This document shows positions 40,309 through 58,696 of a stretch of DNA of 64,000 nucleotides, piece by piece; position 1 is the stretch's first letter, and every line of letters starts with the position of its first letter. Origin of the DNA: Xanthobacteraceae bacterium (GTDB lineage: Bacteria; Pseudomonadota; Alphaproteobacteria; Rhizobiales; Xanthobacteraceae); contig JAIESI010000032.1 of the NCBI GenBank assembly GCA_019746135.1, positions 32,838 through 96,837 on the forward strand, read 5' to 3'. A model generated the notes under the pieces. That model was not told the DNA's origin. It saw only the letters and a program-made list of their open reading frames with translations, and made no database searches. The position numbers and the translations under genes were made by a program.

Positions 40309-41490
40309 TTATTGCCTCGGCATCCGTGCCTTGAACGGGTCCTTCATGTTCTCCTGCTTGTCGAACTCGACGTTGACGAGCTGGCCACCCACCTTCTCGA
40401 CGCGCCGGATATAGACGGTCTGGACCACGTCGCGGGTCTCGGGATCGATCGACATCGGGCCGCGCGGGCTTTCCCACTTGAGCCCCTTGGCCGCGGCGAT
40501 CAGCGCATCGCCGTCGGTGTTGCCGTTGGTCTTCTTCAGCGCCTCGTAGATCACGTGCATGCCGTCATAGCCGCCGACCGAGAACATGTCGGGGTTGCGC
40601 TTGAACTCGGCGTTGTAGTCGGCGACGAACTTCCGGTTCTTCGGCGACTGGTGATTGTGGTCGTAGTGGAACGCGGTGATGAAGCCCAGGCCGGCGTCGC
40701 CCATGCCCTTGAGCGCCTCGTCGAAGGTGAGCTCGCCCTGGCCCAGCACCTTGGTCTTGTTCAGGTCGATGCCGCGTTCGGCCACCGCCTTGCCGATCGC
40801 CGCGGGCTGCGGGCCGCCCGGCACCCAGATGTAGAGCACGTCGGGATTGAGGTCCTTGGCGCGCTGCAGGAACGCGGTGAAGTCCTGGTTTGCCACCGGA
40901 TAGCGCGCCGAGCCGATGATCTCGCCGCCGGCCTCCTTGAACGCGCGCTGGAACGCGCCTTCGCCGTCGTGGCCGGGGCTGAAGTCGGAGACCAGCGTAT
41001 AGGCCTTGCGGGCGCCGCTCTTGTAGGCCCAGGTGCCGAGCGCCTCGTTGACCTGCGGCACGGTGAAGGACGTGCGCACCATGTAGGGCGACTTGGTGGT
41101 GATGATCGAGGTCGCGGCGTTCATGTTGACCATGAACTTCTTCGCCTGCGCCGACACATCGGCGGCCGCGAGCGCGTTCGGCGTGAGATCGAAGCCGGCG
41201 AGCATGTCGACCTTGTCGCGGACGATGAGCTCCTGGGAGAGGCGTTTGGCGACGTCCGGCGCAACGCCGCCATTGTCCTTGCGGATGATCTCGATCTTTT
41301 TGCCGGCCACCGTGTCGCCGTGCTCCTTCATGTAGAGCTTGATGCCGTTGTCGATCTGCGCGCCCGGATCGGCGAATTGTCCGGAAAAGGACATGACCAC
41401 GCCGATCTTGATGGTGCCCTGAGCCTGGGCGGCCGTGGCCGCCAGCAACACTGCCGCGGTGACGGCAAGTCCGGTCATTGCGCGTCGCAT
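40309..41490 (-). CDS. Branched-chain-type ABC substrate-binding protein (set 3, paralog A)
   Basis: MRRAMTGLAVTAAVLLAATAAQAQGTIKIGVVMSFSGQFADPGAQIDNGIKLYMKEHGDTVAGKKIEIIRKDNGG. Confidence 0.92.
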   Translation of the reverse strand: MRRAMTGLAVTAAVLLAATAAQAQGTIKIGVVMSFSGQFADPGAQIDNGIKLYMKEHGDTVAGKKIEIIRKDNGGVAPDVAKRLSQELIVRDKVDMLAGFDLTPNALAAADVSAQAKKFMVNMNAATSIITTKSPYMVRTSFTVPQVNEALGTWAYKSGARKAYTLVSDFSPGHDGEGAFQRAFKEAGGEIIGSARYPVANQDFTAFLQRAKDLNPDVLYIWVPGGPQPAAIGKAVAERGIDLNKTKVLGQGELTFDEALKGMGDAGLGFITAFHYDHNHQSPKNRKFVADYNAEFKRNPDMFSVGGYDGMHVIYEALKKTNGNTDGDALIAAAKGLKWESPRGPMSIDPETRDVVQTVYIRRVEKVGGQLVNVEFDKQENMKDPFKARMPRQ

Positions 41491-41725
41491 GAGGTTCCCT
41501 CCCAAAGCTTCGATCTTCTTGTTTTGCCGCTATTTATCCCGGCCTCGTCGCGATCCGCAATGGCCGCTGGCTTGTCGATTGCCCTGCGCCAATCTGTCCA
41601 CGTCATGGCCGCGACAAGCGGGCATGACGGCGGTGGATTCTGGCTGCGGACAGCAACAGGACCGGCTTCGGTATGCGCCAAAGCCGGTCCCGAGGACATG
41701 AGGATGCTGCGAATATGCGGCGGCC

Positions 41726-42907
41726 CTACTTCGGCATCCGCGCCTTCACCGGGTCCTTGACGTTCTCGACCTTGTCGAAGGCGACGTTCTGCGGCTCGCC
41801 GTTCACCTTCTCGACCTTGCGAATGTAGATCGTCTGCACCACATCGCGGGTTTCGGGATCGATCGACATCGGGCCGCGCGGGCTGTCCCACTTCAGGCCC
41901 TTGGCGGCGGCGATCAGCGCGTCACCGTCGGTCTTGCCGCCGGCTTTCTTCACCGCTTCGTAGATGACGTGCATGCCGTCATAGCCGCCGATCGAGAAGA
42001 AGTCCGGGTTGCGCTTGTGCATCTCGTTGAACAGCTTCACGAACGCGACGTTCTTCGGGTTCTTGTCGGTGTACTCGTAGTGCCAGGCGGTGATGATGCC
42101 GAGGCTCGCGTCGCCCATGCTCTTCAGCGCCTGCTCGGCGGTGGTCTCGCCGGAGCCGAGGATCCTGGTCTTGTTCGGGTCGACGCCGCGCTCGGCGAAG
42201 GCCTTGCCCAGCGCCGCGGGCTGCGCGCCGCCCGGCACGAAGATCATGATCGATTCCGGGTTGAGGTCCTTGGCGCGCTGGATGAACGCGGAGAAGTCCG
42301 GGTTCGCCACGGGGAAGCGCACCGAGCCGGTGATCTCGCCGCCGCCTTCCTTGAACGCGCGGTGGAAGCCCGCCTCGAAATCGTGGCCCGGACCGTAGTC
42401 CGTCACCATGCTGTAGGACTTTTTGATGCCGGCCTTCTTGGCCGCCCAGGTGCCGAAGGTTTCGGCCACCTGCGGCAGCGTCACCGAGGAGCGCACCGAG
42501 TAGGGCGACTTGGTGGTGATGATCGAGGTCGCCGCGTTCATGATCACCATGAACTTCTTCGCTTCGGCCGACACGTCGGAGGCCGCGAGCGCGTTCGGCG
42601 TCAGCACGAAGCCGGCGAGAATGTCGACCTTGTCGCGGACCACCAGCTCCTGCGCCAGGCGCTTGGCGACATCCGGCGCCATGCCGCCGGAGTCCTTGAC
42701 GATCAGCTCGATCTTCTTGCCGCCGACGGTGTCGCCGAACTGCTTCATGTAGGTCTGGACGCCGTTGCGCATCTGGATGCCGGCGTCGGCGAACTGGCCG
42801 GACAGCGTCATGATCACGCCGACCTTGATCGTGTCCTGCGCCGCGGCCTGCGTCATGGTGACGGCAAGCGCGGTGGCGCTCAGAAGTCCGATTAGCGATT
42901 TGCGCAT
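41726..42907 (-). CDS. Branched-chain-type ABC substrate-binding protein (set 3, paralog B)
   Basis: MRKSLIGLLSATALAVTMTQAAAQDTIKVGVIMTLSGQFADAGIQMRNGVQTYMKQFGDTVGGKKIELIVKDSGG; clearly paralogous to 40309-41490. Confidence 0.92.
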   Translation of the reverse strand: MRKSLIGLLSATALAVTMTQAAAQDTIKVGVIMTLSGQFADAGIQMRNGVQTYMKQFGDTVGGKKIELIVKDSGGMAPDVAKRLAQELVVRDKVDILAGFVLTPNALAASDVSAEAKKFMVIMNAATSIITTKSPYSVRSSVTLPQVAETFGTWAAKKAGIKKSYSMVTDYGPGHDFEAGFHRAFKEGGGEITGSVRFPVANPDFSAFIQRAKDLNPESIMIFVPGGAQPAALGKAFAERGVDPNKTRILGSGETTAEQALKSMGDASLGIITAWHYEYTDKNPKNVAFVKLFNEMHKRNPDFFSIGGYDGMHVIYEAVKKAGGKTDGDALIAAAKGLKWDSPRGPMSIDPETRDVVQTIYIRKVEKVNGEPQNVAFDKVENVKDPVKARMPK

Positions 42908-46310: not shown

Positions 46311-47864
46311 ATGTCCAGTGCCGATGCCGAACGCTTCCGCCTGCGCCGCTTCGTCGAGCGGCTGGTGCAGCTTGGCGAGTGCGAGATCCACGACAAGCCG
46401 ATCGATCTCGTCGACGTGGCGGCGGTGCTCGACGGCAACACCAGGGCGACCTGGTTCAAGGCGGTCGGGCCGGAGAAGGCCGAGCTGATCGGCAACGTCA
46501 TGGGCTCGCGCAAGCGGCTGGCCCTGGCGCTGGATACCGACGAAGCGGGGCTTTTGCCGGAGATCACCCGGCGGCTCGGCAGCCCGCACAAGCCCATCAA
46601 GGTCGCGGCGGCCGACGCGCCGGTGCAGCAGGTGGTGAAGAAGGCCGAGGAGGCCGACCTCTGTGCGCTGCCGGTGCATCTGCAGCACGGCGAGGACGGC
46701 GCGCCGTACATCTCCGCGGGCCTCGATGTCATGCAATTCCGCGACACCGGGCACACCAATATCGGCTGCCGGCGGATCATGCTGCGCGGGCCGCGCACCG
46801 CGGGCATCGACATGATCGCGCCGAGCGACGCGCGCGCGATCTATCTCGAAGGCGTGGCGAAGGGCGAGAAGACGCCGGTGGCGTATGTCGTCGGCTCCAC
46901 GCCGTGCGACTTCATGGCGGCGGTCTGCATGAATCCGCCGATGGACGAGCTCGAGGTGCTGGGTGCGTTGCGCGGTGCGCCGGTTCCGGTCGTCAAATGC
47001 GTCACCAACGACATCTTCGTGCCGGCCGACGCCGAATACGTGCTCGAAGGCTATCTCGACAGCAAGGGCCACGTCGAGCCGGAAGGGCCGTACGGCGAAT
47101 ATGTCGGCTATTACGGCGTGGTGAAGCGCAATCCGGTGTTCCATCTCACCGCGATCACGCACAGGAAGGACGCGCTGTTCCAGACCGTCACCATCGGCGG
47201 CAAGCATCTCGGCCGCACCGACACCGCGCAGCTCACCACGGTGAAGACCGAGTCCGCGGCCTGGGCGGGCCTCGTCACCGCGGTGCGCGAGCCGGTGGCC
47301 TGCTTTGCCACGCCGTCGAGCGGCGGCATGTACAACGTCCGCGTCTCGATCCGCCAGCGCGTGCCGGGCGAGGCGCGCAACGCCATCGCCGCGGTGTTCG
47401 GCAGCATGGCCGAGGCCAAGCAGGTGTTCGTGTTCGACGACGACATCGACGTGTTCTCCGACGAGCAGTGCGACTGGGCGCTGGCGACGCGCTATCAGGG
47501 CGACCGCGACACGCTGCAGGGCTCGGGCTTCCGCGTGGTGCCGCTCGATCCGTCGCTCGGCGGCCAGCGCGTCGGCGCCAAGATCGGCTTCGACTGCACC
47601 ATCCCGTTCGGCAAGCGGCAGTCGCTGGAGTGGGGCGTCCCGGTGGCGCCGGTGATGCCCAAAGAAACCGCGAAGCCGAACGGCGGCGGGAAAAAGTCGG
47701 TGGCGGATACGCTCGCGGCCGGACCTGCGAGCTTCCTCGAGTTGATGGTCGCGGCCGGCTCCCGCGACGGCCGCGAGATCGTGCGCGAGCTCGACGTGCT
47801 TTATGCGGCCGACAAGCTCACGCGCAACGAGACCGGCCGTTATATTTTGAAAAGCGCCGGATAG
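46311..47864 (+). CDS. UbiD-family decarboxylase (second copy in window)
   Basis: MSSADAERFRLRRFVERLVQLGECEIHDKPIDLVDVAAVLDG...VEPEGPYGEYVGYYG...ITHRKDALFQTVTIGGKHLGRTD. Confidence 0.93.
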   Translation: MSSADAERFRLRRFVERLVQLGECEIHDKPIDLVDVAAVLDGNTRATWFKAVGPEKAELIGNVMGSRKRLALALDTDEAGLLPEITRRLGSPHKPIKVAAADAPVQQVVKKAEEADLCALPVHLQHGEDGAPYISAGLDVMQFRDTGHTNIGCRRIMLRGPRTAGIDMIAPSDARAIYLEGVAKGEKTPVAYVVGSTPCDFMAAVCMNPPMDELEVLGALRGAPVPVVKCVTNDIFVPADAEYVLEGYLDSKGHVEPEGPYGEYVGYYGVVKRNPVFHLTAITHRKDALFQTVTIGGKHLGRTDTAQLTTVKTESAAWAGLVTAVREPVACFATPSSGGMYNVRVSIRQRVPGEARNAIAAVFGSMAEAKQVFVFDDDIDVFSDEQCDWALATRYQGDRDTLQGSGFRVVPLDPSLGGQRVGAKIGFDCTIPFGKRQSLEWGVPVAPVMPKETAKPNGGGKKSVADTLAAGPASFLELMVAAGSRDGREIVRELDVLYAADKLTRNETGRYILKSAG

Positions 47865-47869
47865 CGCTC

Positions 47870-49675
47870 ATGGCGCGATCGGAGTCTTTGCTTGGCAACG
47901 ATCAGGTAGTCCAACTCGCTTTCTCGCTTCACGAGAATAGAGGTGTCTATTCGCTTTTGATTGGTTCGGGTATGTCCCGGGCTGCCGAGATTCCAACCGG
48001 TTGGGAAATCACTATCGACCTGATTCGACGAGTTGCGTTGGCACGGGGCGTCAAAGAGCAACCCGATTGGGCCGCCTGGTACAATGACGAGGTCGGTGAG
48101 GAGCCCAACTACTCAACCCTTCTCGCAGAGCTGGCCTCAACGCCCATGGAGAGGCGGTCCATCCTTCACGCATATATAGAACCCACGGACGAAGATCGAC
48201 GAGAAGGCCGCAAGATTCCGACGGCTGCTCATCGGTCCGTCGCGGAGCTCGTTCGCGCAGGCTATATTCGGGTCGTTATCACTACCAATTTCGACAGGCT
48301 CATCGAGAACGCGTTGCGCGACGCGGGCGTCGAGCCCACGGTCGTGTCCTCGCCTGACGCGTTGTCCGGCGCTGAATCAATGGCGCACAGCACTTGCTAC
48401 ATCCTCAAACTTCACGGGGATTACAAGGACACACGAATTCTCAATACGGACGAAGAATTGAGCGCATATCCGGAAGTCTACGGAAATTTACTCGATCGAA
48501 TCTTCGATGAATACGGCCTGATCGTTTGTGGCTGGTCTGGCGAGTGGGATCATGCGTTGCGGGCCGCGTTTCTGCGCGCGCCAAACCGTCGATATCCACT
48601 ATATTGGACCTCACGATCGGCGCTTCGCTCGGCCGCGAAGCAGGTCGCGGATCACCGCAAGGCCCGTGTTGTTACTATAGCCGATGCGGACTCATTTTTC
48701 ACGGCGCTTCGGCAGCGGGTCGAAACGCTGGAGCAGACCCGCCGGCAGAATCCGCTTAGTGTGGAGCTGTTGGTTAGCACAGCAAAACGGTATCTCGCGC
48801 GATCCGAATATCGAATCCAGCTTGACGACCTTGTTGCCCAAGAAACTGAGCGAGTACTCGCCGCAATTGCTGTTCCGGCGCTTGCACCGCATGACGCTGT
48901 CGATCGCGTTCATTTCCTTACAAGAATTCGAACCTATGAAGGGGTCGTTGAAGCGCTTGTACGCATGGTCGGCGTCATGGGGCGGTGGGGCGACGGAAGT
49001 GAAACACCGCTTGTCCTGGACCTCATCCGCACGCTTTGCGCGGATGCCGATCGTGTCGGTAGCGGGACAAACGTATGGCTAAGTTTGCGTAGATATCCTG
49101 CGGTTTTGATCTTCACGGCCTACGGGCTTGGTTTAACGGTCGCGAGGCGATGGAGCGTGCTGCACGAGTTGTTTGCGGCCCAGGTCGCAAGGGAAGGTAA
49201 GCAGCAACATAGAGCCGTAGACGCGTTGTTCCTGTGGGCTTGGGGTGACGGAGCGGATGATGGATTGTGGAATTTCGTTTGGAGCACACCCGACAAGAAA
49301 GTCAGCAAATTAACACCGCTCAGTAGCTATCTATCCGGGCTGTTCAGCGAGTGGGGAAAGTCGTTTACGAGTCTCACTCCCGACCTGGAGTTTCTCTACG
49401 AGAGGTTTGAGCTGCTGGGCTCGGTCGCTCATTTGGAGGCAACCGAGCAATCCGACCTTGAGAAGGCTATGGCGGACAACCGTCCCAATAGTTGGGTTTG
49501 GGCTCCCGTCGGGCGTTATGCTTGGCACACCTCAAATTTCGAGCGGCTACTGCAGGAGATTGGAGAAGAGCCGTTCCGACGCGAACTATTGGACGCGGGC
49601 TTTGCGCGAGGTAACGAGACGTTCCTTGGGCTAGCGGTCGAGAATATCAAACGTATTGCTAGAAGGGTCCGTTGA
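47870..49675 (+). CDS. SIR2-domain protein, stand-alone, candidate anti-phage NADase
   Basis: Y(S)LLIGSGMSRAAEIPTGWEI (GAGxS-like), VVITTNFDRLIENAL, YILKLHGDYKD, YGLIVCGWSGEWDHALRAAF; long helical C-terminal extension. True start inferred at ATG 47870, not the 46379 ORF start. Confidence 0.85.
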   Translation: MARSESLLGNDQVVQLAFSLHENRGVYSLLIGSGMSRAAEIPTGWEITIDLIRRVALARGVKEQPDWAAWYNDEVGEEPNYSTLLAELASTPMERRSILHAYIEPTDEDRREGRKIPTAAHRSVAELVRAGYIRVVITTNFDRLIENALRDAGVEPTVVSSPDALSGAESMAHSTCYILKLHGDYKDTRILNTDEELSAYPEVYGNLLDRIFDEYGLIVCGWSGEWDHALRAAFLRAPNRRYPLYWTSRSALRSAAKQVADHRKARVVTIADADSFFTALRQRVETLEQTRRQNPLSVELLVSTAKRYLARSEYRIQLDDLVAQETERVLAAIAVPALAPHDAVDRVHFLTRIRTYEGVVEALVRMVGVMGRWGDGSETPLVLDLIRTLCADADRVGSGTNVWLSLRRYPAVLIFTAYGLGLTVARRWSVLHELFAAQVAREGKQQHRAVDALFLWAWGDGADDGLWNFVWSTPDKKVSKLTPLSSYLSGLFSEWGKSFTSLTPDLEFLYERFELLGSVAHLEATEQSDLEKAMADNRPNSWVWAPVGRYAWHTSNFERLLQEIGEEPFRRELLDAGFARGNETFLGLAVENIKRIARRVR

Positions 49676-49766
49676 TCGCCGCCGAGATCGCGCGGGCGCT
49701 GGATGTTCTCTATCCACCAACAGGTTGACGCGTAACGAAGCCGGCTCCTACGCGCCGAAGAGCTAA
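49676..49766 (+). pseudogene. Degenerate 3' end of a UbiD-family gene (frameshifted remnant)
   Basis: gagatcgcgcgggcgctggatgttctctat... encodes EIARALDVLY then, after a 1-nt loss, RLTRNEAGSYAPKS*, matching the intact gene's EIVRELDVLYAADKLTRNETGRYILKSAG*. Confidence 0.75.
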
Positions 49767-50009
49767 ATTGGGAGCCGGCGCCCCAGGTCGATTCACGTGC
49801 GGCATCGGCGGTGGCCAGTCGAGGGAGGGCAGGCGAGGGAATACGATCTCTCTATTCGACCGTAACGCTGGGGGCGCGGTCATGATGTCGCGCCATCGTG
49901 CCGTTTCCGACCGTATGTAGGAAGCCTCCTTGGTGGTCAGCGTGTCGAAGGTTTCCAGGACCAGCGCATTCAACTGCTGCCGCAACACGTCAAACATCTG
50001 CATTCCCAA
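49710..50009 (-). CDS. Hypothetical small ORF
   Basis: MGMQMFDVLRQQLNALVLETFDTLTTKEASYIRSETARWRDIMTAPPALRSNREIVF...; amino-acid composition plausible but no recognised family; overlaps the UbiD remnant. Confidence 0.3.
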   Translation of the reverse strand: MGMQMFDVLRQQLNALVLETFDTLTTKEASYIRSETARWRDIMTAPPALRSNREIVFPRLPSLDWPPPMPHVNRPGAPAPNLALRRVGAGFVTRQPVGG

Positions 50010-50144
50010 GCCGTGGCCTTACGAGAACGCGACCACCTGCGGTCTTGCGGCAGGCCCTCGCGGCAAGAAAACCGATCGCTCCAAATCGCAAATGCGCTAG
50101 TTATGGATGGGCGCGACCAGCGATTCGCTCCAGAGGGAGGATCG

Positions 50145-50414
50145 ATGCGTTACGGCAAACAGACGTTGCGCGCATCTGCGATGATCGCATTGGCAATTCC
50201 GAATGTCCTGGCAGCGTGTGCGACCAATGAAAATCAGGGAGCGAGGAGTATGTTCGAGCCGCAGGCCGCCGCTCTCGAGCGTTACGATCGATCATCTGCC
50301 AATTATCGACAGTGTGTTTTGACCAACGAAGCCAATCCAAACCGGTGCGAGTGGCAGCGCAATCTGATGGAAGCGGATCATAGGCAATTGCATGCCTCGC
50401 TTCAGCAGAAGTGA
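50145..50414 (+). CDS. Small putative lipoprotein
   Basis: SD-like gagggagg before ATG; MRYGKQTLRASAMIALAIPNVLAACATNENQ with lipobox-like LAAC. Confidence 0.55.
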   Translation: MRYGKQTLRASAMIALAIPNVLAACATNENQGARSMFEPQAAALERYDRSSANYRQCVLTNEANPNRCEWQRNLMEADHRQLHASLQQK

Positions 50415-50432
50415 TGTTGGGCCGAAGCTTTG

Positions 50433-50596
50433 GAGCATGATCCCGAAAAGTGTGAAGCGGTTTTCGGACAAGATCATGCTCAGACAAGAAGCATGATTCC
50501 GAAAAAGCCTGCCTCGGACTTGATCCGGTGAAGCGGTTTCCCGCCTTCGCGAAGCCCGCTTCGGCGGGCGAAGCAAGGTCGGACAAGGATCATGCT
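50433..50596. repeat. Dispersed palindromic repeat (gagcatgatc-ccgaaaa ... ttttcgg-acaa-gatcatgctc) with degenerate second unit
   Basis: First hairpin 50433-50481; related aagcatgattccgaaaaa at ~50488 and ggatcatgctcgag at ~50587. Confidence 0.75.
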
Positions 50597-50947
50597 CGAG
50601 CAAGCAGCCGAAGCGCGATGACGCGTCGAAGCAAAGTCATCCCGTGTTAGGCCACGCGCGAGATCGCGGATTCATCGTCGCCGTTTCGATCGAGCCACAC
50701 GATCCGCTTCTGAATATTCGCAGCAGATATTTTTCTTGATCTGTGTCCCGGCGAGCTGATTCGCGCCGCGATGGAATTTGACATTGATAGTCAATTAAGA
50801 ATCAGTGAATTATCCCCAGTAAGATTCGGTAATTTGTCCCCAGGCTTTTTGGCGTCCGTACGGCTTGTCGCATGTGTGCGTCGGCCTTCCGAACGAACGC
50901 GGTCAAAGGCCTTCACTTTCTCGCGAATGTTAACAGCAGGGGTGGCC

Positions 50948-52246
50948 ATGTCGCATTGGTCTCCGCGTCCGATCTCGTTATTCGGGCGCGCATCCGTGAT
51001 CGGGCTCGTTTCGCTGAGCGTGCCCCTGCAGGCTTTCGCGGCCGGATCGAACACGAGCGGCGTGGCGCCCATCCCCACGACGCCCACGCCGGTGGTGACC
51101 AGCCAGCCGCAGGTGGGATTGATCTCGGACGCGACCTGCGCCCAGCAGCTCGATACCCTTGGCATCGTCGCGGAGAGCGTCGCGATGGGCCTCGAGATCG
51201 GGGGCCTTGGCGCTGAAGTCACTGCACAAGCCGCGGGAGTCGGGCCAACCCAACAAGCAGCCGAAGCCGCAGCGATCGGCCTTCAGATCGGCGCTCAGGG
51301 TGCTGCAGCAGCAGCTTTGGCCGCTCAGGTCAGGCAATCGCAGTTGCCGAGTTGCGAACAGGAATTCACCGGCACGGTGAAGGTCAGCAATGGCGGCCTG
51401 AATGTCACCGGTCAGTCCATCTTCAACAACACCGTCGGCATCATCGGCAATCTGAATGCCAGCCAGAATGTCACGGCAACCCAGGTCCAGGCCACGCAGG
51501 GCATTGCCGCCCATGGCGGCGCAATCTGGCTCGGCGATCCCGGCGGCCTGACCTATTCCAGCGGCATTACGCTCGGTGGCGGTGCGCTTTCGGGCGCAGG
51601 CACCGGCGGCGCGCAGGCTTTTACCGGCGACGTCAGTGCGGTCGCGATCGGCAACGGCGCCAGCGCGTTCGCCGTGAACAGCACCGCGCTCGGCACCAAT
51701 GCCAGGGCCGGGGCGGTCAGCGGCAGCGGCACCAATTCCACGGCTATCGGCGCCAATTCCAGCGCGGCGTTCAACAACTCCGCAGCGTTCGGCAGCGGCG
51801 CAACCGCGGTCCGTCCCAATCAGCAGGTGTTCGGCACGAGGTCGAACACCTACACGATGCCCGGCCTCACTTCGCCCGCCAGCCGGGGTGCCCAGTCGGG
51901 CCTGCTGCAGCTGCCGACCACGGACGCGATGGGCAATCTCGCGTCGGATGGCGGCGAGACCTTCAGGGCGATCTCGAGATTGCGCGCCGGCGTTGCCCTC
52001 TCGCTGGCCGCGACCCCTGCGGTGCTGGCGGCCAACGAGAAGTTCGGCATGCGCGTCGGCTGGGGCACGTTCGACGGCGCCAATGCACTGGGCTTCAGCG
52101 CGACCGGTGTTCTCGCCGAGGGGCTTTTTTCGAAGCGCGACCGGCTGACGCTCGATGGCGGTGTCGGCTTCGGCTTCGGCGAATTCATGGGCTACCGCGA
52201 GAACGCCGTCGTCGGCGGTCGCGCCGGCCTTCAGCTGACGTGGTGA
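50948..52246 (+). CDS. YadA-like trimeric autotransporter adhesin
   Basis: Signal ISLFGRASVIGLVSLSVPLQAFAAGS; YadA head-type repeats AVAIGNGASAFAVNSTALGTNARAG...NSTAIGANSSAAFNNSAAFGSGAT; C-terminal membrane-anchor-like ISRLRAGVALSLAATPAV...GGRAGLQLTW. Confidence 0.85.
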   Translation: MSHWSPRPISLFGRASVIGLVSLSVPLQAFAAGSNTSGVAPIPTTPTPVVTSQPQVGLISDATCAQQLDTLGIVAESVAMGLEIGGLGAEVTAQAAGVGPTQQAAEAAAIGLQIGAQGAAAAALAAQVRQSQLPSCEQEFTGTVKVSNGGLNVTGQSIFNNTVGIIGNLNASQNVTATQVQATQGIAAHGGAIWLGDPGGLTYSSGITLGGGALSGAGTGGAQAFTGDVSAVAIGNGASAFAVNSTALGTNARAGAVSGSGTNSTAIGANSSAAFNNSAAFGSGATAVRPNQQVFGTRSNTYTMPGLTSPASRGAQSGLLQLPTTDAMGNLASDGGETFRAISRLRAGVALSLAATPAVLAANEKFGMRVGWGTFDGANALGFSATGVLAEGLFSKRDRLTLDGGVGFGFGEFMGYRENAVVGGRAGLQLTW

Positions 52247-52256
52247 GGACAGCGGA

Positions 52257-52910
52257 ATGTTTGGCCGCATGAGCGAGAGGCTTTGCAGCGCAATGAGCAG
52301 CCGTGAGCCGGCGCGACTGAGAGTCGCGAAAAAACTTCGGGCGCTTTCGTTGGCGATGACCATGGCCGCCTCGATTGCGGTCCCCGCCAGCGCGCAAGTG
52401 GCGGAGCCCGGAATGCCGAACGGCATGCAGCTCCTGATGATGATCAAGACCACGCTGATCGCCTACAGCCAGGCCAACACGACCGGAAACTACAGCGTTC
52501 TGCGCGATCTGGCGGCGCCGGCCTTCCAGCAGGTCAACTCCGTCGCGCGTCTGAGCGAAATCTTCCGCGACGAGCGCAGCAAGAATCTCGATCTTTCGCC
52601 GGTGGTTCTGCTCCGGCCCGAGCTGCTTCGCCCCGTCGTCGTCGACGACAACGGCCTCCTGAATGTCGAGGGCTATTTTCCGAGCAAACCGCAGATGGTG
52701 CATTTCAAGCTGGTGTTTCAGAGCGTCGCGCAGAAGTGGCGGCTCGTCGCGCTTGGCGTCACCACGGTTTCCGCCACGCCCATGGCCGCGAATGATCCCA
52801 AGCGCGAAAACCCCGCAGCGCGGCCGGCCGAGAAGGCAAAAGTGACGGCTGGCGAATTTGTTCAGAACTGGGCCGGCAACTGGCCCGCTTTGCAAGCCGG
52901 GTTCCGTTGA
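52257..52910 (+). CDS. Secreted hypothetical protein, possible NTF2-like fold
   Basis: Signal-like LSLAMTMAASIAVPASAQ; LLMMIKTTLIAYSQANTTGNYSVLRDLAAPAFQQ...VHFKLVFQSVAQKWRLVALGV; 10 bp after the YadA-like gene. Confidence 0.65.
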   Translation: MFGRMSERLCSAMSSREPARLRVAKKLRALSLAMTMAASIAVPASAQVAEPGMPNGMQLLMMIKTTLIAYSQANTTGNYSVLRDLAAPAFQQVNSVARLSEIFRDERSKNLDLSPVVLLRPELLRPVVVDDNGLLNVEGYFPSKPQMVHFKLVFQSVAQKWRLVALGVTTVSATPMAANDPKRENPAARPAEKAKVTAGEFVQNWAGNWPALQAGFR

Positions 52911-53040
52911 GCAGCGGCCGTGTTGGCCGCGATGCGTCCGCGCAGCTTCTGTCGTGTTCGAGTGGAGATGCTTCACGTGCTGAGCGCCTGCGCCCGGTTC
53001 GGCGCCCAGGTGTCCGGCGCAAGGAAAAAATGACAACGCG

Positions 53041-56000
53041 ATGAACACACGAACTCGACAGATCAAGGTTTACGCGGGGCGTCGGGCTGGAGCTCTCGGC
53101 CGGGAGGTCGCAGCCTCATCGAGGCTGGGCCGCAAGCTCGCAACCTGTGTGACCTTCGTCAGTTTTCTGATGGCAACAACTGCGCTGCCGGTTTGGGCAG
53201 AAGGCGGAGATGGTGGCAGTGACGGCGTCAATGCTGGTGGCGCGGGCGGAACTGGATTTGTCGGAAATGCCGGCGGCACCAGCTTAACACCCGCTGGCGG
53301 CGGCGGCGGCGGCGCGGGCGGCGGAGCCGGCGGCGGCAGTGCAGGGGGAGGCGCAGGCGGAGCCGGCGGCGCTAACGGCAACGGCGCAGGCGCAGCGAGC
53401 ATCACCAATGCTGCGCCACTCGCGGGTGGCGACGGCAGCAGCGGTGGCGACGGCCCGCCGGCTGGCAGCGGCGGCGGCGGTGGCGGCGGTGCGGGCGGTT
53501 ACGGGGCCATCGTCACCGGCGGCGGCGCGAGCAGCAACAGCAGCACGATCACGGGCGGCGACGGCGGGGCAGGCGGTGCATCCGGGGGCAGCTTGAACAA
53601 TCGCGGCGGCAACGGCGGCGACGGCGGCGTCGGCATTGAATTTACGACGAGCGGTGCCACCTTCACCAACTCCGCGGGCGCAACCGTGACGGGCGGCAAC
53701 GGCGGAGCTGGGGGAGCGGCCTTCGGGTTCGGAACGGCCGGCATTGCAGGCTCTGGCGGCGCCGGCATCGTGGGTTCAGGTCTCACGATCATCAACAGCG
53801 GGACGATATCCGGCGGCTTGTCAGGGACCGGCCTGACCCGCGCCGACGCCATCACCTTCACCGGCGGCGCCAACGTTCTCGAGCTGCAGCCCGGGAGCTT
53901 CATTGCCGGCAATGTGGTCGTTCAAGCCGGCACCGGGACGCTCCGGCTGGCCGGCACCGGGAGCGGCGCTTTTGACGCCTCGTCGATCGGCCCGGCGGCC
54001 CAGTACCGGGGCTTCGGCAGCTTCGAGAAGACCGGCACCAGCACCTGGTCCTTGACCGGAACAACGACGGCGCTGACGCCCTGGACGATCAGCGGCGGGA
54101 CTTTGTCCATCACGGCGGACGGCAGTCTCGGTGCGAGTGGCGGCGTTCTCACCATGGACGGCGGCACCCTGCAGTTTCTCAACACCACCACCAGCACCCG
54201 CAACGTCACGCTGACCGCCAACGGCGGCACGTTCAACACCTTGGGCTCCCCCGTGACGCTCGGCGGCACGATTTCCGGCGTGGGAGGCAGCCTGACCAAG
54301 ACCGGCCTCGGCATCCTGACCCTCTCGGGAACGAGCACCTATGACGGCGCGACGACGGTCGAGCAGGGCACCCTGCAGGCGGGCGCCAACAATGTCTTCA
54401 GTAACGTGAGCGCGTTCGAGGTCAAATCCGGCGCCGTGCTCGATCTGAACGGTTTCAATCAAACCCTGACCTCGCTCGCCGGCGCGGGCAACGTCACGCT
54501 GGGCGCGGGCACGCTGACGACCGGTGACGCCACCAACACGACGCTGTCCGGTGCGATCTCGGGGACCGGCGGTCTCAACAAGGAAGGCACCGGTATCTTC
54601 ACGTTGTCCGGCGCCAACAATTATTCCGGCACGACGAATATCAACGCCGGCACGTTGCAGGCCGGCGCGGCAAGCACCTTCTCCTCCGACAGCGCCATCG
54701 TGGTGGGCGCCGCCGGAACGCTCGACCTCAACGGGTTCAACCAGTCGATCGGCTCGCTTGCCGGCAGCGGTGCAGTCACGCTGGGCGCTGGAACGCTGAC
54801 GACCGGAAACGACAACACCAACACGGCGTTCTCGGGAACCATGACCGGCACCGGCGGCTTGACGAAGGTCGGCACCGGCATCTTCACGCTGGACACGGCG
54901 GTCGCCTATACCGGCGCGACCAACGTCGATGCCGGCACGTTGCGAGCGGGCGCTGCGAACGTCCTGGCGCCCGGCAGCGCCTTCACCATCGCATCCGGCG
55001 CGACCCTCGATCTGAACTCCTTCTCCCAATCCATCGCCTCGCTCGCCGGTGCCGGCGACGTGACGTTGGGCATCGCCACGCTGACCGCCGGGTCCGGCAA
55101 CACCAGCACGACGTTCTCCGGAAACATTTTCGGCACCACCGGCGGATTGACCAAGGTCGGCACCGGCACGCTGACGCTTTCGGGCACGGGCGGCTACACC
55201 GGTGCAACGAACATCAGCGGCGGGACGTTGCTGGTCACCGGCGACTACGCGGGCTCGCCGTTTGTTGTCAATTCGGGCGGCACGCTTGGCGGCAGCGGCT
55301 TTGTAGGCGCAACCACCGTTGCGGGCGGCGGCACCCTGGCGCCGGGAAGCTCGACCGGCCTGAACGTGAACGGGACGCTGACATTCAATTCCGGCAGCAC
55401 CTATGCCGTCGGAGTTTCCCCGACTGCTGCCGACAAGGTTGTCGTCGCCGGCACGGCCTCGCTCGCCGGCACGGTCCAGGCCACGTTCCAGGGCGGCACC
55501 CTCACACCGAAGACCTACACGATCCTGACCTCGGCCGGCCTGGGCGGCACGACATTCGACACGCTCACGGCTGTCGGTGCGCCGGCCGGTTTTGCCCTGG
55601 CCCTGAGCTATACGGCGACCGATGCGCTGCTGAGCTTGACTGCTGCGCTTGGTCAGGACGTCCCGCTGAACCGGAACCAGCAGAACGTCGCAAGCGCGAT
55701 CAATTCGTTCTTCAACGGCGGCGGCACCTTGCCGCCGGAATTCCTGGCGATCTACAGCCTGACCGGAAAGGGCCTGCAGACCGCGCTCTCGCAGCTTTCG
55801 GGCGAAGGCGCGACGGGCGCGCCCCGCGGCGCCGCGATGATGACCGGTCAGTTCCTTGGGCTGATGCTTGATCCATTCGTCGACGGCCGGACTGGCGGCG
55901 CATCGAGCGGCGGCCGGATCGGCTTCGCGCAGGAAGACACGTTGCCGGATGCCGCACTCGCCTACGGGACGGCACCTCCGCGGTCGCCCCGGCTCGAGTC

Positions 56001-56844
56001 GTTTGACCGCCGCTGGGGGTCGTGGGCCGCGGGATTTGGCGGCTCGGGCGGCATCAGCGGCGACGCGGCGACCGGTTCGAACGACCTCAACATGACCACT
56101 TACGGCGTCGCGGTCGGGCTGGATTATCGCTTTTCATCGGACACCGTTGCCGGCTTCTCGTTTGCCGGCGGCGGAACCAATTGGGGGCTGCCGCAAGGCC
56201 TCGGCGGCGGCAGCAGCGACGCATTCCTGTTCGGCGCATACGCCGCCACGCGGTTGGGCCCGGCCTATCTCGCGACGTCGTTTGCATTTGCCAACCATTG
56301 GGTCTCAACCGATCGCACCGGCGTCAACGGTAATCGGCTGAAGGCCGACTATACCGGCCAGAACATCGGCGGCCGGATCGAGGGCGGCTACCGGTATGGC
56401 AACGTCTCGGGGGGCATCACGCCCTACGCTGCGGCGCAGGTCCAGGTGTTCCAGGCGCCGAGCTACACCGAGATCGACACGGACGGCGGCCCGTTCGCAC
56501 TTCACTACAATGCGAAGAACTCGACGGACTGGCGGACCGAGTTCGGTGCGCGCTTCGACGCGGCGCAAGCCGTCAATCCAACGACCGTTCTGACCTGGCG
56601 CAGCCGTCTGGCCTGGGGTCACAGCTGGACGAGCACGCCTTCACTCAACGCGGGTTTCGTGGCGTTGCCCGGCGCAATCTTCACCGTGACGGGCGCGGCG
56701 CCAGCCAAGGATGTTTTGCTCGCCTCGGCGGGCTTCGACCTGAGCCTGACCAGTGGCGTCACACTCTTGGGCAAGTTCGACGGTGAGTTCGGCAGCGGCA
56801 CCCAGATTTTCAGCGGAACGGCTGCGCTGCGCTACCGATGGTGA
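53041..56844 (+). CDS. Type Va autotransporter with Gly-rich N-terminus, passenger repeats and C-terminal beta-domain
   Basis: Gly-rich N-terminus; repeated TGGLTKVGTGIFTLSG...NINAGTLQAGA passenger strands; C-terminal beta-barrel ending FSGTAALRYRW. Confidence 0.93.
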   Translation: MNTRTRQIKVYAGRRAGALGREVAASSRLGRKLATCVTFVSFLMATTALPVWAEGGDGGSDGVNAGGAGGTGFVGNAGGTSLTPAGGGGGGAGGGAGGGSAGGGAGGAGGANGNGAGAASITNAAPLAGGDGSSGGDGPPAGSGGGGGGGAGGYGAIVTGGGASSNSSTITGGDGGAGGASGGSLNNRGGNGGDGGVGIEFTTSGATFTNSAGATVTGGNGGAGGAAFGFGTAGIAGSGGAGIVGSGLTIINSGTISGGLSGTGLTRADAITFTGGANVLELQPGSFIAGNVVVQAGTGTLRLAGTGSGAFDASSIGPAAQYRGFGSFEKTGTSTWSLTGTTTALTPWTISGGTLSITADGSLGASGGVLTMDGGTLQFLNTTTSTRNVTLTANGGTFNTLGSPVTLGGTISGVGGSLTKTGLGILTLSGTSTYDGATTVEQGTLQAGANNVFSNVSAFEVKSGAVLDLNGFNQTLTSLAGAGNVTLGAGTLTTGDATNTTLSGAISGTGGLNKEGTGIFTLSGANNYSGTTNINAGTLQAGAASTFSSDSAIVVGAAGTLDLNGFNQSIGSLAGSGAVTLGAGTLTTGNDNTNTAFSGTMTGTGGLTKVGTGIFTLDTAVAYTGATNVDAGTLRAGAANVLAPGSAFTIASGATLDLNSFSQSIASLAGAGDVTLGIATLTAGSGNTSTTFSGNIFGTTGGLTKVGTGTLTLSGTGGYTGATNISGGTLLVTGDYAGSPFVVNSGGTLGGSGFVGATTVAGGGTLAPGSSTGLNVNGTLTFNSGSTYAVGVSPTAADKVVVAGTASLAGTVQATFQGGTLTPKTYTILTSAGLGGTTFDTLTAVGAPAGFALALSYTATDALLSLTAALGQDVPLNRNQQNVASAINSFFNGGGTLPPEFLAIYSLTGKGLQTALSQLSGEGATGAPRGAAMMTGQFLGLMLDPFVDGRTGGASSGGRIGFAQEDTLPDAALAYGTAPPRSPRLESFDRRWGSWAAGFGGSGGISGDAATGSNDLNMTTYGVAVGLDYRFSSDTVAGFSFAGGGTNWGLPQGLGGGSSDAFLFGAYAATRLGPAYLATSFAFANHWVSTDRTGVNGNRLKADYTGQNIGGRIEGGYRYGNVSGGITPYAAAQVQVFQAPSYTEIDTDGGPFALHYNAKNSTDWRTEFGARFDAAQAVNPTTVLTWRSRLAWGHSWTSTPSLNAGFVALPGAIFTVTGAAPAKDVLLASAGFDLSLTSGVTLLGKFDGEFGSGTQIFSGTAALRYRW
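54286..55250 (+). repeat. Tandem ~94-96-codon repeats inside the autotransporter passenger
   Basis: G-G/S-L-T/N-K-x-G-x-G-I/T units start at 54286, 54568, 54853 and 55141 (spacing 282, 285, 288 nt). Confidence 0.85.
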
Positions 56845-57001
56845 CAACGATGATGCTGCTGGCCTGCAGCCACAGGGTAAGGCGGTTCGGCCGCGTCGCA
56901 ACTCCTCCTGCGGCGTGCAGGATCGTTTAACCCGAAGGCTCCCGCTGGCCCGGTGCGCCTGAAATCAGGGGGCGCCGGGCCGAGCGCACGCTGTCCGGCG
57001 T

Positions 57002-58696
57002 TCAGTCCTTGCCCGCCACCGCCATCGCGGCGCGCCAGGCGAACACCAGCGCAGGTCCGAGCGTAATGCCCGGGCCCGGATAGGTGCCGCGCATGATCGA
57101 CGCCATGTCGTTGCCGCAGGCGTAGAGGCCGGGGATCGGCGCGCCGTTGCCGTCGAGCACGCGGCCGTCGGCGTCGGCCTTGAGCCCGATGCTGCTGCCG
57201 AGCGTGCTGGGATAGACCGCCATCGCGTAGTAGGGCGGGGTGGCGATCGGGCCGATGCACGGGTTGGGTCCGTGCTTCGGGTCGCCGTTGTTGCGGTCGA
57301 ACTCGGTCGAGCCCTTGCCGAAGTCCAGGTCCTCGCCGGTCGCGGCGTAGCGGTTGTTGCGGGCAATCTCCTCGTTGAGGCCCGCGGCATCGACGCCGAT
57401 CGCCTTGGCGAGCGCCTCGGCGGTTTTCGCTTCGACCAGATAGCCGTTTCTGATCATCCGGCCGAAGCTCTCCCGGTTGGGCGGGATGCGGCCGAGGCCG
57501 TATTTGTGCAGAAACCCGGCATCGCACACGAGCCACGCCGGAATGGTCGGTACGCTCGCGTGCGAGCGATGCATGCCGAGCACGAAGTCGTGATACGACA
57601 CCGCCTCGTCGACGAAGCGCCGGCCCGCGGCGTTGACCGCGATCAGCCCGGGCTTGGAGCGGTCGAGCGCGAGATGCGGATAGGCGCCGCGGCCGCCCTT
57701 CAGCCACGCGGTGCGCGACACCGGAGTCCAGAACACCGGCTGCTCATGATCGTCCTCGACCGCCGCGCCCGCCGCGCGCGCGATGCGCATGCCGTCGCCG
57801 GCCGCGCCGGCAAAGGCCACGGCGTCGGCGAGCGGCGGCGTCACGTGGTCGTTGAGCCGCACGGTGCTGCCGCCGAAGCCGCCGGTCGCGAGGATGACGC
57901 CGCGGCGCGCCGTCACGCGTTGCTGCCTGCCGTTGCTGCCGATCACCGCACCGGTCACGCGGCCGTCCTCGACGATCAGCTCCTGCAACGCCGCATTCAA
58001 CCGGATCGGCACCCGCTGGGCTTTGAGGCTCATCAGCAGTCGCGCGGCGAGCGCATTGCCCATCAGCAGCCGCGTGCCGCGGCGATGGCGCAGGCGGTCC
58101 CGCGCCTGACGCCAGACCAGCGACACGGCCTTGCGTAATGACGCGATCGAGCCGAACGGCCGGGCCAGCGGCTCGATGTCGTCGCGGCCGATCATCATGC
58201 CGCCGAGCGCCATGAACTCGCCGATCGGCGGCCGCAGCAATTTGAAATCGTTCCCCAGCAGGCGGCCGTCGAACGGCAGCGGCGCCAGCGCCCGGCCGGC
58301 AAGCGTCGCGCCCGGTCGGTTGACCAGATAGTCCGGATGCCTGGTGTAGGCGGAGAACTTCACCTCGCTGCGGCGCTCGAGATATTCGACCACGTCCTTG
58401 CCGGTCTCGAGATAGATGTCGCGGCGGTTGTCGGTCGCCGGACCGATGATCGCATCGAGGTAGCGGCGGGCGTCGTCGGTGGTGTCGGTGAAGCCTGCCT
58501 CGCGCGCCTGCCGCGTGCCGATCACCCAGATCGTGCCGGCCGAGGTCGCCGTGGTGCCGCCGACCTGGGCCGACTTTTCGCAGAGCAAAACGTCGAGGCC
58601 TTCCAGCGCGCAGGTGAGCGCCGCGGTCATGCCGCCGGCGCCTGCGCCGACGACCAGCGCATCGACCGTGAGCGCGTCCTGGTCCGGGGACGCCAT
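57002..58696 (-). CDS. FAD-dependent 3-ketosteroid delta1-dehydrogenase / fumarate-reductase-like flavoprotein
   Basis: ALVVGAGAGGMTAALTCALEGLDVLLCEKSAQVGGTTATSAGTIWV; C-terminal LYACGNDMASIMRGTYPGPGITLGPALVFAWRAA. Confidence 0.92.
   Translation of the reverse strand: MASPDQDALTVDALVVGAGAGGMTAALTCALEGLDVLLCEKSAQVGGTTATSAGTIWVIGTRQAREAGFTDTTDDARRYLDAIIGPATDNRRDIYLETGKDVVEYLERRSEVKFSAYTRHPDYLVNRPGATLAGRALAPLPFDGRLLGNDFKLLRPPIGEFMALGGMMIGRDDIEPLARPFGSIASLRKAVSLVWRQARDRLRHRRGTRLLMGNALAARLLMSLKAQRVPIRLNAALQELIVEDGRVTGAVIGSNGRQQRVTARRGVILATGGFGGSTVRLNDHVTPPLADAVAFAGAAGDGMRIARAAGAAVEDDHEQPVFWTPVSRTAWLKGGRGAYPHLALDRSKPGLIAVNAAGRRFVDEAVSYHDFVLGMHRSHASVPTIPAWLVCDAGFLHKYGLGRIPPNRESFGRMIRNGYLVEAKTAEALAKAIGVDAAGLNEEIARNNRYAATGEDLDFGKGSTEFDRNNGDPKHGPNPCIGPIATPPYYAMAVYPSTLGSSIGLKADADGRVLDGNGAPIPGLYACGNDMASIMRGTYPGPGITLGPALVFAWRAAMAVAGKD

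Follow-up and report, generated by a model that had tools for sequence, protein, structure and literature searches.

A SIR2-family gene lies between an intact ubiD gene and a decayed ubiD 3'-end stump in a Xanthobacteraceae bacterium

We analysed a 64,000-nucleotide stretch of DNA from a Xanthobacteraceae bacterium (hereafter the window), in which a ubiD-family decarboxylase gene, a SIR2-family gene and a short remnant of a ubiD 3' end follow one another on the plus strand. The ubiD gene (46311–47864) is intact. Its ORF ends with the TAG at 47862–47864, and its product carries the N, Rift and C domains of UbiD (Pfam). Orthologues of this gene are present in 9 of the 10 other genomes of the genus, with 81–88% identity at the DNA level, and judged by this identity to relatives, the gene is native to the genus. 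No identity step that could mark a crossover was observed within ubiD upon comparison to the relatives. The last ∼6 codons are unlike those of every orthologue in the genus, and the DNA alignments of the window gene to its orthologues end at about 47837–47855. This divergent end of ubiD, at about 47846–47864, marks the left junction.

The ORF of the SIR2 gene (47870–49675, plus strand; 601 amino acids) begins with the ATG at 47870, 5 bp past the ubiD stop, and ends with the TGA at 49673–49675; an earlier note on this DNA had placed the start codon and the ubiD stop (47864) at the same positions. The protein matches SIR2_2 of Pfam and belongs to PDC-S65, for which PADLOC lists a candidate family of single-gene anti-phage SIR2 systems. 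Both of the PDC-S65 profiles matched it over its full length (E-values of 2.8e-217 and 4.8e-198), the stronger of the two matches covering residues 9–598. We found no paper that names PDC-S65. The protein consists of an N-terminal SIR2 domain of the NADase type and a helical C-terminal half, and its structure model has a mean pLDDT of 80.7. The catalytic motifs are intact (TTNFD with N140 and KLHGDY with H182), and both N140 and H182 are invariant across nine aligned members of PDC-S65. The gene product is most likely a putative NAD-consuming abortive-infection effector. SIR2 is also a probable second gene of the ubiD transcript.

We compared the SIR2 protein to characterized systems. The fold of its SIR2 domain model matched those of SPARSA (8y80; E-value of 8.5e-10), DSR2, KomC and ThsA, and the best PDB matches by sequence (8jkz, 8jl0 and 8in8) point to the same relatives. 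The N-terminal SIR2 domain with the TTNFD and KLHG motifs is common to the window protein and to SPARSA/Sir2-Ago, DSR2, ThsA and KomC. The C-terminal half of the window protein, on the other hand, is a helical domain of its own; the full-length TM-scores are low (0.3–0.4), and the SIR2 domain alone is shared. DSR2 is also longer (about 1000 residues compared to 601), and unlike in Sir2-Ago, no Argonaute was identified among the scanned ORFs near the SIR2 gene. From the other members of PDC-S65, the window protein differs only by about one terminal residue that was lost at the junction: its homologues terminate with RMRW* or a similar sequence, and the window protein is one residue shorter and ends at the stump. 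Among the loci compared, a flanking ubiD stump was found at the window copy alone.

The composition of the SIR2 gene is foreign. Its GC content is 0.563 with a GC3 of 0.60, compared to GC contents of 0.63–0.68 and GC3 values of 0.88–0.91 in three upstream genes, which bears out the AT-richness and the weaker codon bias that the earlier note had judged by eye. Of the 399 genomes of the bacterial family, only 11 contain a relative of SIR2, and the ten other genus genomes all lack one; the note had proposed to check for such an absence. The PDC-S65 relatives share 45–61% identity with the window protein and are scattered over Proteobacteria and beyond. As the closest relative found is only 61% identical, no donor is in sight. 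A donor having ubiD followed directly by SIR2 was found neither in the 399 family genomes nor in the genome collection. A search for this SIR2 family in phages gave no match, and it was found in 35 plasmid records and at 5 loci on viral contigs. The family is present on some mobile DNA, and no donor of the window gene was seen among these copies. The foreign composition, the absence of the gene in the ten genus genomes and a best relative of only 61% identity support the view that SIR2 is a recent foreign acquisition.

A PDC-S65 variant that is 53.0% identical to the window SIR2 was observed in Afipia, Bradyrhizobium, Rhizorhabdus and Sphingorhabdus. Its matches (loci L108–L112, L136–L139, L152, L170 and L173) have the same ends and identical 30-nt flanks. 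Since the identity, the ends and the 30-nt flanks are the same across four genera, the sequences suggest a mobile island that has spread recently.

The third feature is the 91-bp stump (49676–49766, plus strand; EIARALDVLY..TNRLTRNEAGSYAPKS*), which begins at the SIR2 stop codon. It aligns with the last ∼95 nt of ubiD with a local score of 29, and its frame is broken by one internal 1-nt deletion. As judged from the alignment (GCCGCCGAG versus GGCCGCGAG), one nucleotide has probably also been inserted at the left edge of the stump. The background for this score, which was defined by the 64-kb window and by codon shuffles, is much lower: 5,000 codon shuffles scored 8.9 on average (sd 1.5) and never above 17, and the stump is the best match to the ubiD tail outside ubiD on both strands of the window, the next non-overlapping place scoring 17. 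We also searched the 3 kb behind each of 92 other genes (from the window and the related loci) with the gene's own tail. Only one of them exceeded the stump, with a score of 58, and this gene is followed by a genuine tandem paralogue; the next score was 22. The ubiD tail stump is real, and the remnant with a single 1-nt deletion that the earlier note had described behind the SIR2 stop is confirmed.

The tails of several genus-level ubiD1 genes score 29–36 against the stump, compared to about 8–12 for the tails of the paralogue ubiD2. In a likelihood placement, the distant orthologues of the family were rejected (delta lnL > 11), and the placements that remained were the window gene itself and the genes of loci L040, L043, L046, L047 and L198, 91 bp being too short for a firm phylogenetic placement. 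On these comparisons, the stump derives from a ubiD that belongs to the same clade at the genus level. An origin from ubiD2, whose tails score at background, was rejected. Nor was the stump copied recently from the intact tail, a reading that we rejected as well: the stump is identical to the intact tail of the window at 54 of 83 positions (65%), no closer than to the tails of other species (at best 58 of 83). Short DNA matches of 49672–49708 in many genomes of the family lie within genes that have nothing to do with ubiD (for TRAP transporter receptors and an oxidoreductase, and a peroxidase-like gene) and were dismissed as chance matches of GC-rich coding sequence. Third codon positions hold 11 of the 20 differences of the stump from the intact tail. 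As most of the differences lie at third positions, the stump diverged largely as part of a working gene and decayed afterwards. The V of LDVLY and the S of the KS end are, within the genus, common to the stump and the intact tail of the window alone, and these two residues are a weak hint that both tails may be of one lineage.

A once-coding, diverged ubiD1 tail of the genus type could also have been left by a second ubiD1 that once stood here in tandem. SIR2 would have replaced or entered this copy, all but the last ∼28 codons of which were then deleted. This reading, which the earlier note had given as its alternative, is the main rival to the acquisition anchored in ubiD that is proposed below, and it accounts for the anatomy of the locus nearly as well. 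Tandem paralogues are common nearby: the region 40309–42907 holds a tandem pair of similar periplasmic binding-protein genes, and tandem copies occur in the relatives too. Moreover, the only background score above that of the stump came from a tandem paralogue. However, none of the 9 genus orthologues and none of the 10 other orthologues of the family has a second ubiD1-type tail in its vicinity, and the paralogue that lies downstream in the genus is a different gene, ubiD2. The scheme also requires an extra duplication and a deletion that ended precisely at SIR2. On balance, we regard a deleted tandem ubiD as somewhat unlikely. In several relatives, ubiD2 follows ubiD1 in the same orientation at a distance of 7–22 kb, and the host genome carries its ubiD2 on another contig (G000:C370:44977-46497).

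The DNA behind ubiD was compared to that of the relatives. In two of them, G006 and G007, the ubiD stop is followed, immediately or within a few bases, by the stop of a convergent FAD-dependent oxidoreductase gene, which represents the empty arrangement. The same gene (57002–58696, minus strand) lies 9.1 kb beyond ubiD in the window. As ubiD abuts this gene in the two relatives, all of 47865–57001 is extra in the window, and not SIR2 alone. The earlier note had considered that in the relatives the ubiD tail might continue into the sequence after 49766, and this was not the case: in these two simplest loci ubiD meets the gene at 57002, and therefore 49767–57001 is also extra. This latter part contains non-coding DNA, REP-like repeats, a YadA-head protein gene and a PATR autotransporter gene. 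It has no match in the ten other genomes of the genus except for the repeats and one patch of 69% identity; the same was observed for the block 50942–56844, which encodes the YadA-head protein, an unassigned 206-aa protein and the PATR autotransporter. The REP-like repeat (gcatgatcccgaaaagtgtgaagcggttttcggacaagatcatgctc) at 50425–50600 occurs 40 or more times in the host genome, and related copies are present in the relatives.

The left and right flanks of the insert give the same ranking of the relatives, and therefore the locus itself is native. A chimeric contig, misassembled at SIR2, might be considered as the assembly is in 395 contigs with an estimated contamination of 8.5%. But the sequences to the left and right of the insert have the same relatives as their matches, ranked alike, and a chimera would not put a ubiD tail of the same clade exactly at the SIR2 stop, which makes such an artefact very improbable.

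We looked for signs that the ubiD 3' end is used repeatedly as an insertion site. In nine orthologous loci of the genus, ubiD is followed by genes for a metallo-hydrolase, Bug receptors, an alpha/beta hydrolase, a hydroxyacyl-CoA dehydrogenase, an FAD oxidoreductase and a DMT exporter (some of these names were read from the sequence without a family search), and neither defence cargo nor an integrase was recognised among them. A second ubiD tail was absent from all the 19 other orthologues (nine from the genus and ten from elsewhere in the family) for up to 12 kb downstream, some of the contigs ending earlier; the sole raised score, 24 in L046, came from a full ubiD2 paralogue. No additional close ubiD was found in 347 further genomes of the order, and we found no paper on ubiD as an insertion site. 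The place after ubiD is a point of gene turnover and not a defence hotspot.

The same question was asked from the side of the SIR2 family. In 77 distinct PDC-S65 loci, together with redundant copies, the tail of the upstream gene was searched for downstream of the SIR2 gene, and none had a convincing flanking repeat; the tail scores were 14 or lower, values that the shuffles of these loci reached as well, as compared to 30 in the window. None of the 77 has a ubiD within ∼6–8 kb on either side. A family-wide habit of insertion of this kind was therefore rejected. Thus, the proposal of the earlier note that a defence gene had inserted at the ubiD 3' end stands as to the foreign acquisition and the stump, and fails as to the ubiD 3' end being a site for defence cargo.

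The order of an intact gene, cargo and a displaced tail is exactly what is left by integrations into icd (e14 type) or tRNA genes, where a complete gene is followed by the cargo and a remnant of the gene tail. SIR2 could accordingly have been carried in as cargo by a small integrative element, whose own tail restored ubiD and displaced the old tail, and whose integrase was lost later. A direct repeat of the gene tail is present at both ends of SIR2, and 8 nt (CGAGATCG) are common to both tails where the homologous stretch begins. However, the repeat has diverged to the 65% identity given above, the cargo is a single gene, and no second occupied ubiD tail was found among the 19 orthologues. The 1.8 kb that separate the two tails contain no integrase, the 96.8-kb contig (C394) as a whole lacks a tyrosine integrase (PF00589), and the window has no tRNA gene. 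Together with the absence of flanking repeats at the 77 loci of the SIR2 family, these results make an integrative element improbable. A variant of it, in which the ubiD 3' end would serve as the attachment site for a family of small integrase-free defence cassettes mobilised in trans, the window being one decayed example, is very unlikely.

The locus is a scar left by a single horizontal gene transfer, which involved a known kind of defence gene. Our preferred explanation and the simplest one, held tentatively and at a little below even confidence, is that the PDC-S65 SIR2 gene was gained horizontally by a recombination anchored in ubiD, which left the resident tail as a decayed stump; the order of events and the route are inferred. 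The incoming DNA would have carried the 3' part of a ubiD followed directly by SIR2, and homologous recombination would have occurred within ubiD. At the resident ubiD tail, the non-homologous end of this DNA would then have been attached by illegitimate joining. The outcome would be a complete ubiD, SIR2 and the resident tail as a stump, which would have decayed since. At the locus, the new DNA adjoins a homologous gene that could serve as the anchor and has a displaced 3' end behind it, the order being the intact ubiD, SIR2 and the stump of a same-clade ubiD. Several points count against the anchored acquisition: such illegitimate junctions are rare, ubiD has no identity step that would mark a crossover, and no donor with ubiD followed directly by SIR2 was found.

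Homology-facilitated illegitimate recombination has been documented in bacteria (PMC3240628), and it was proposed for the T6SS loci of Vibrio, in which new modules have displaced 3' ends and orphan genes behind them (PMC5361080). As in those T6SS effector loci and Rhs, a new module in the window is joined to a conserved upstream gene, and the old 3' end is left downstream (PMC5361080). The window differs from the Vibrio loci in that a defence gene is joined to a metabolic one, and in having one stump only, with no donor or series of intermediates found.

On the anchored acquisition, the scar would be a readable case of a single defence gene entering the chromosome without integration machinery of its own, with a housekeeping gene as the anchor. 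One such case was found here; if arrivals of this kind are frequent, surveys limited to integrase-bearing islands would overlook them.
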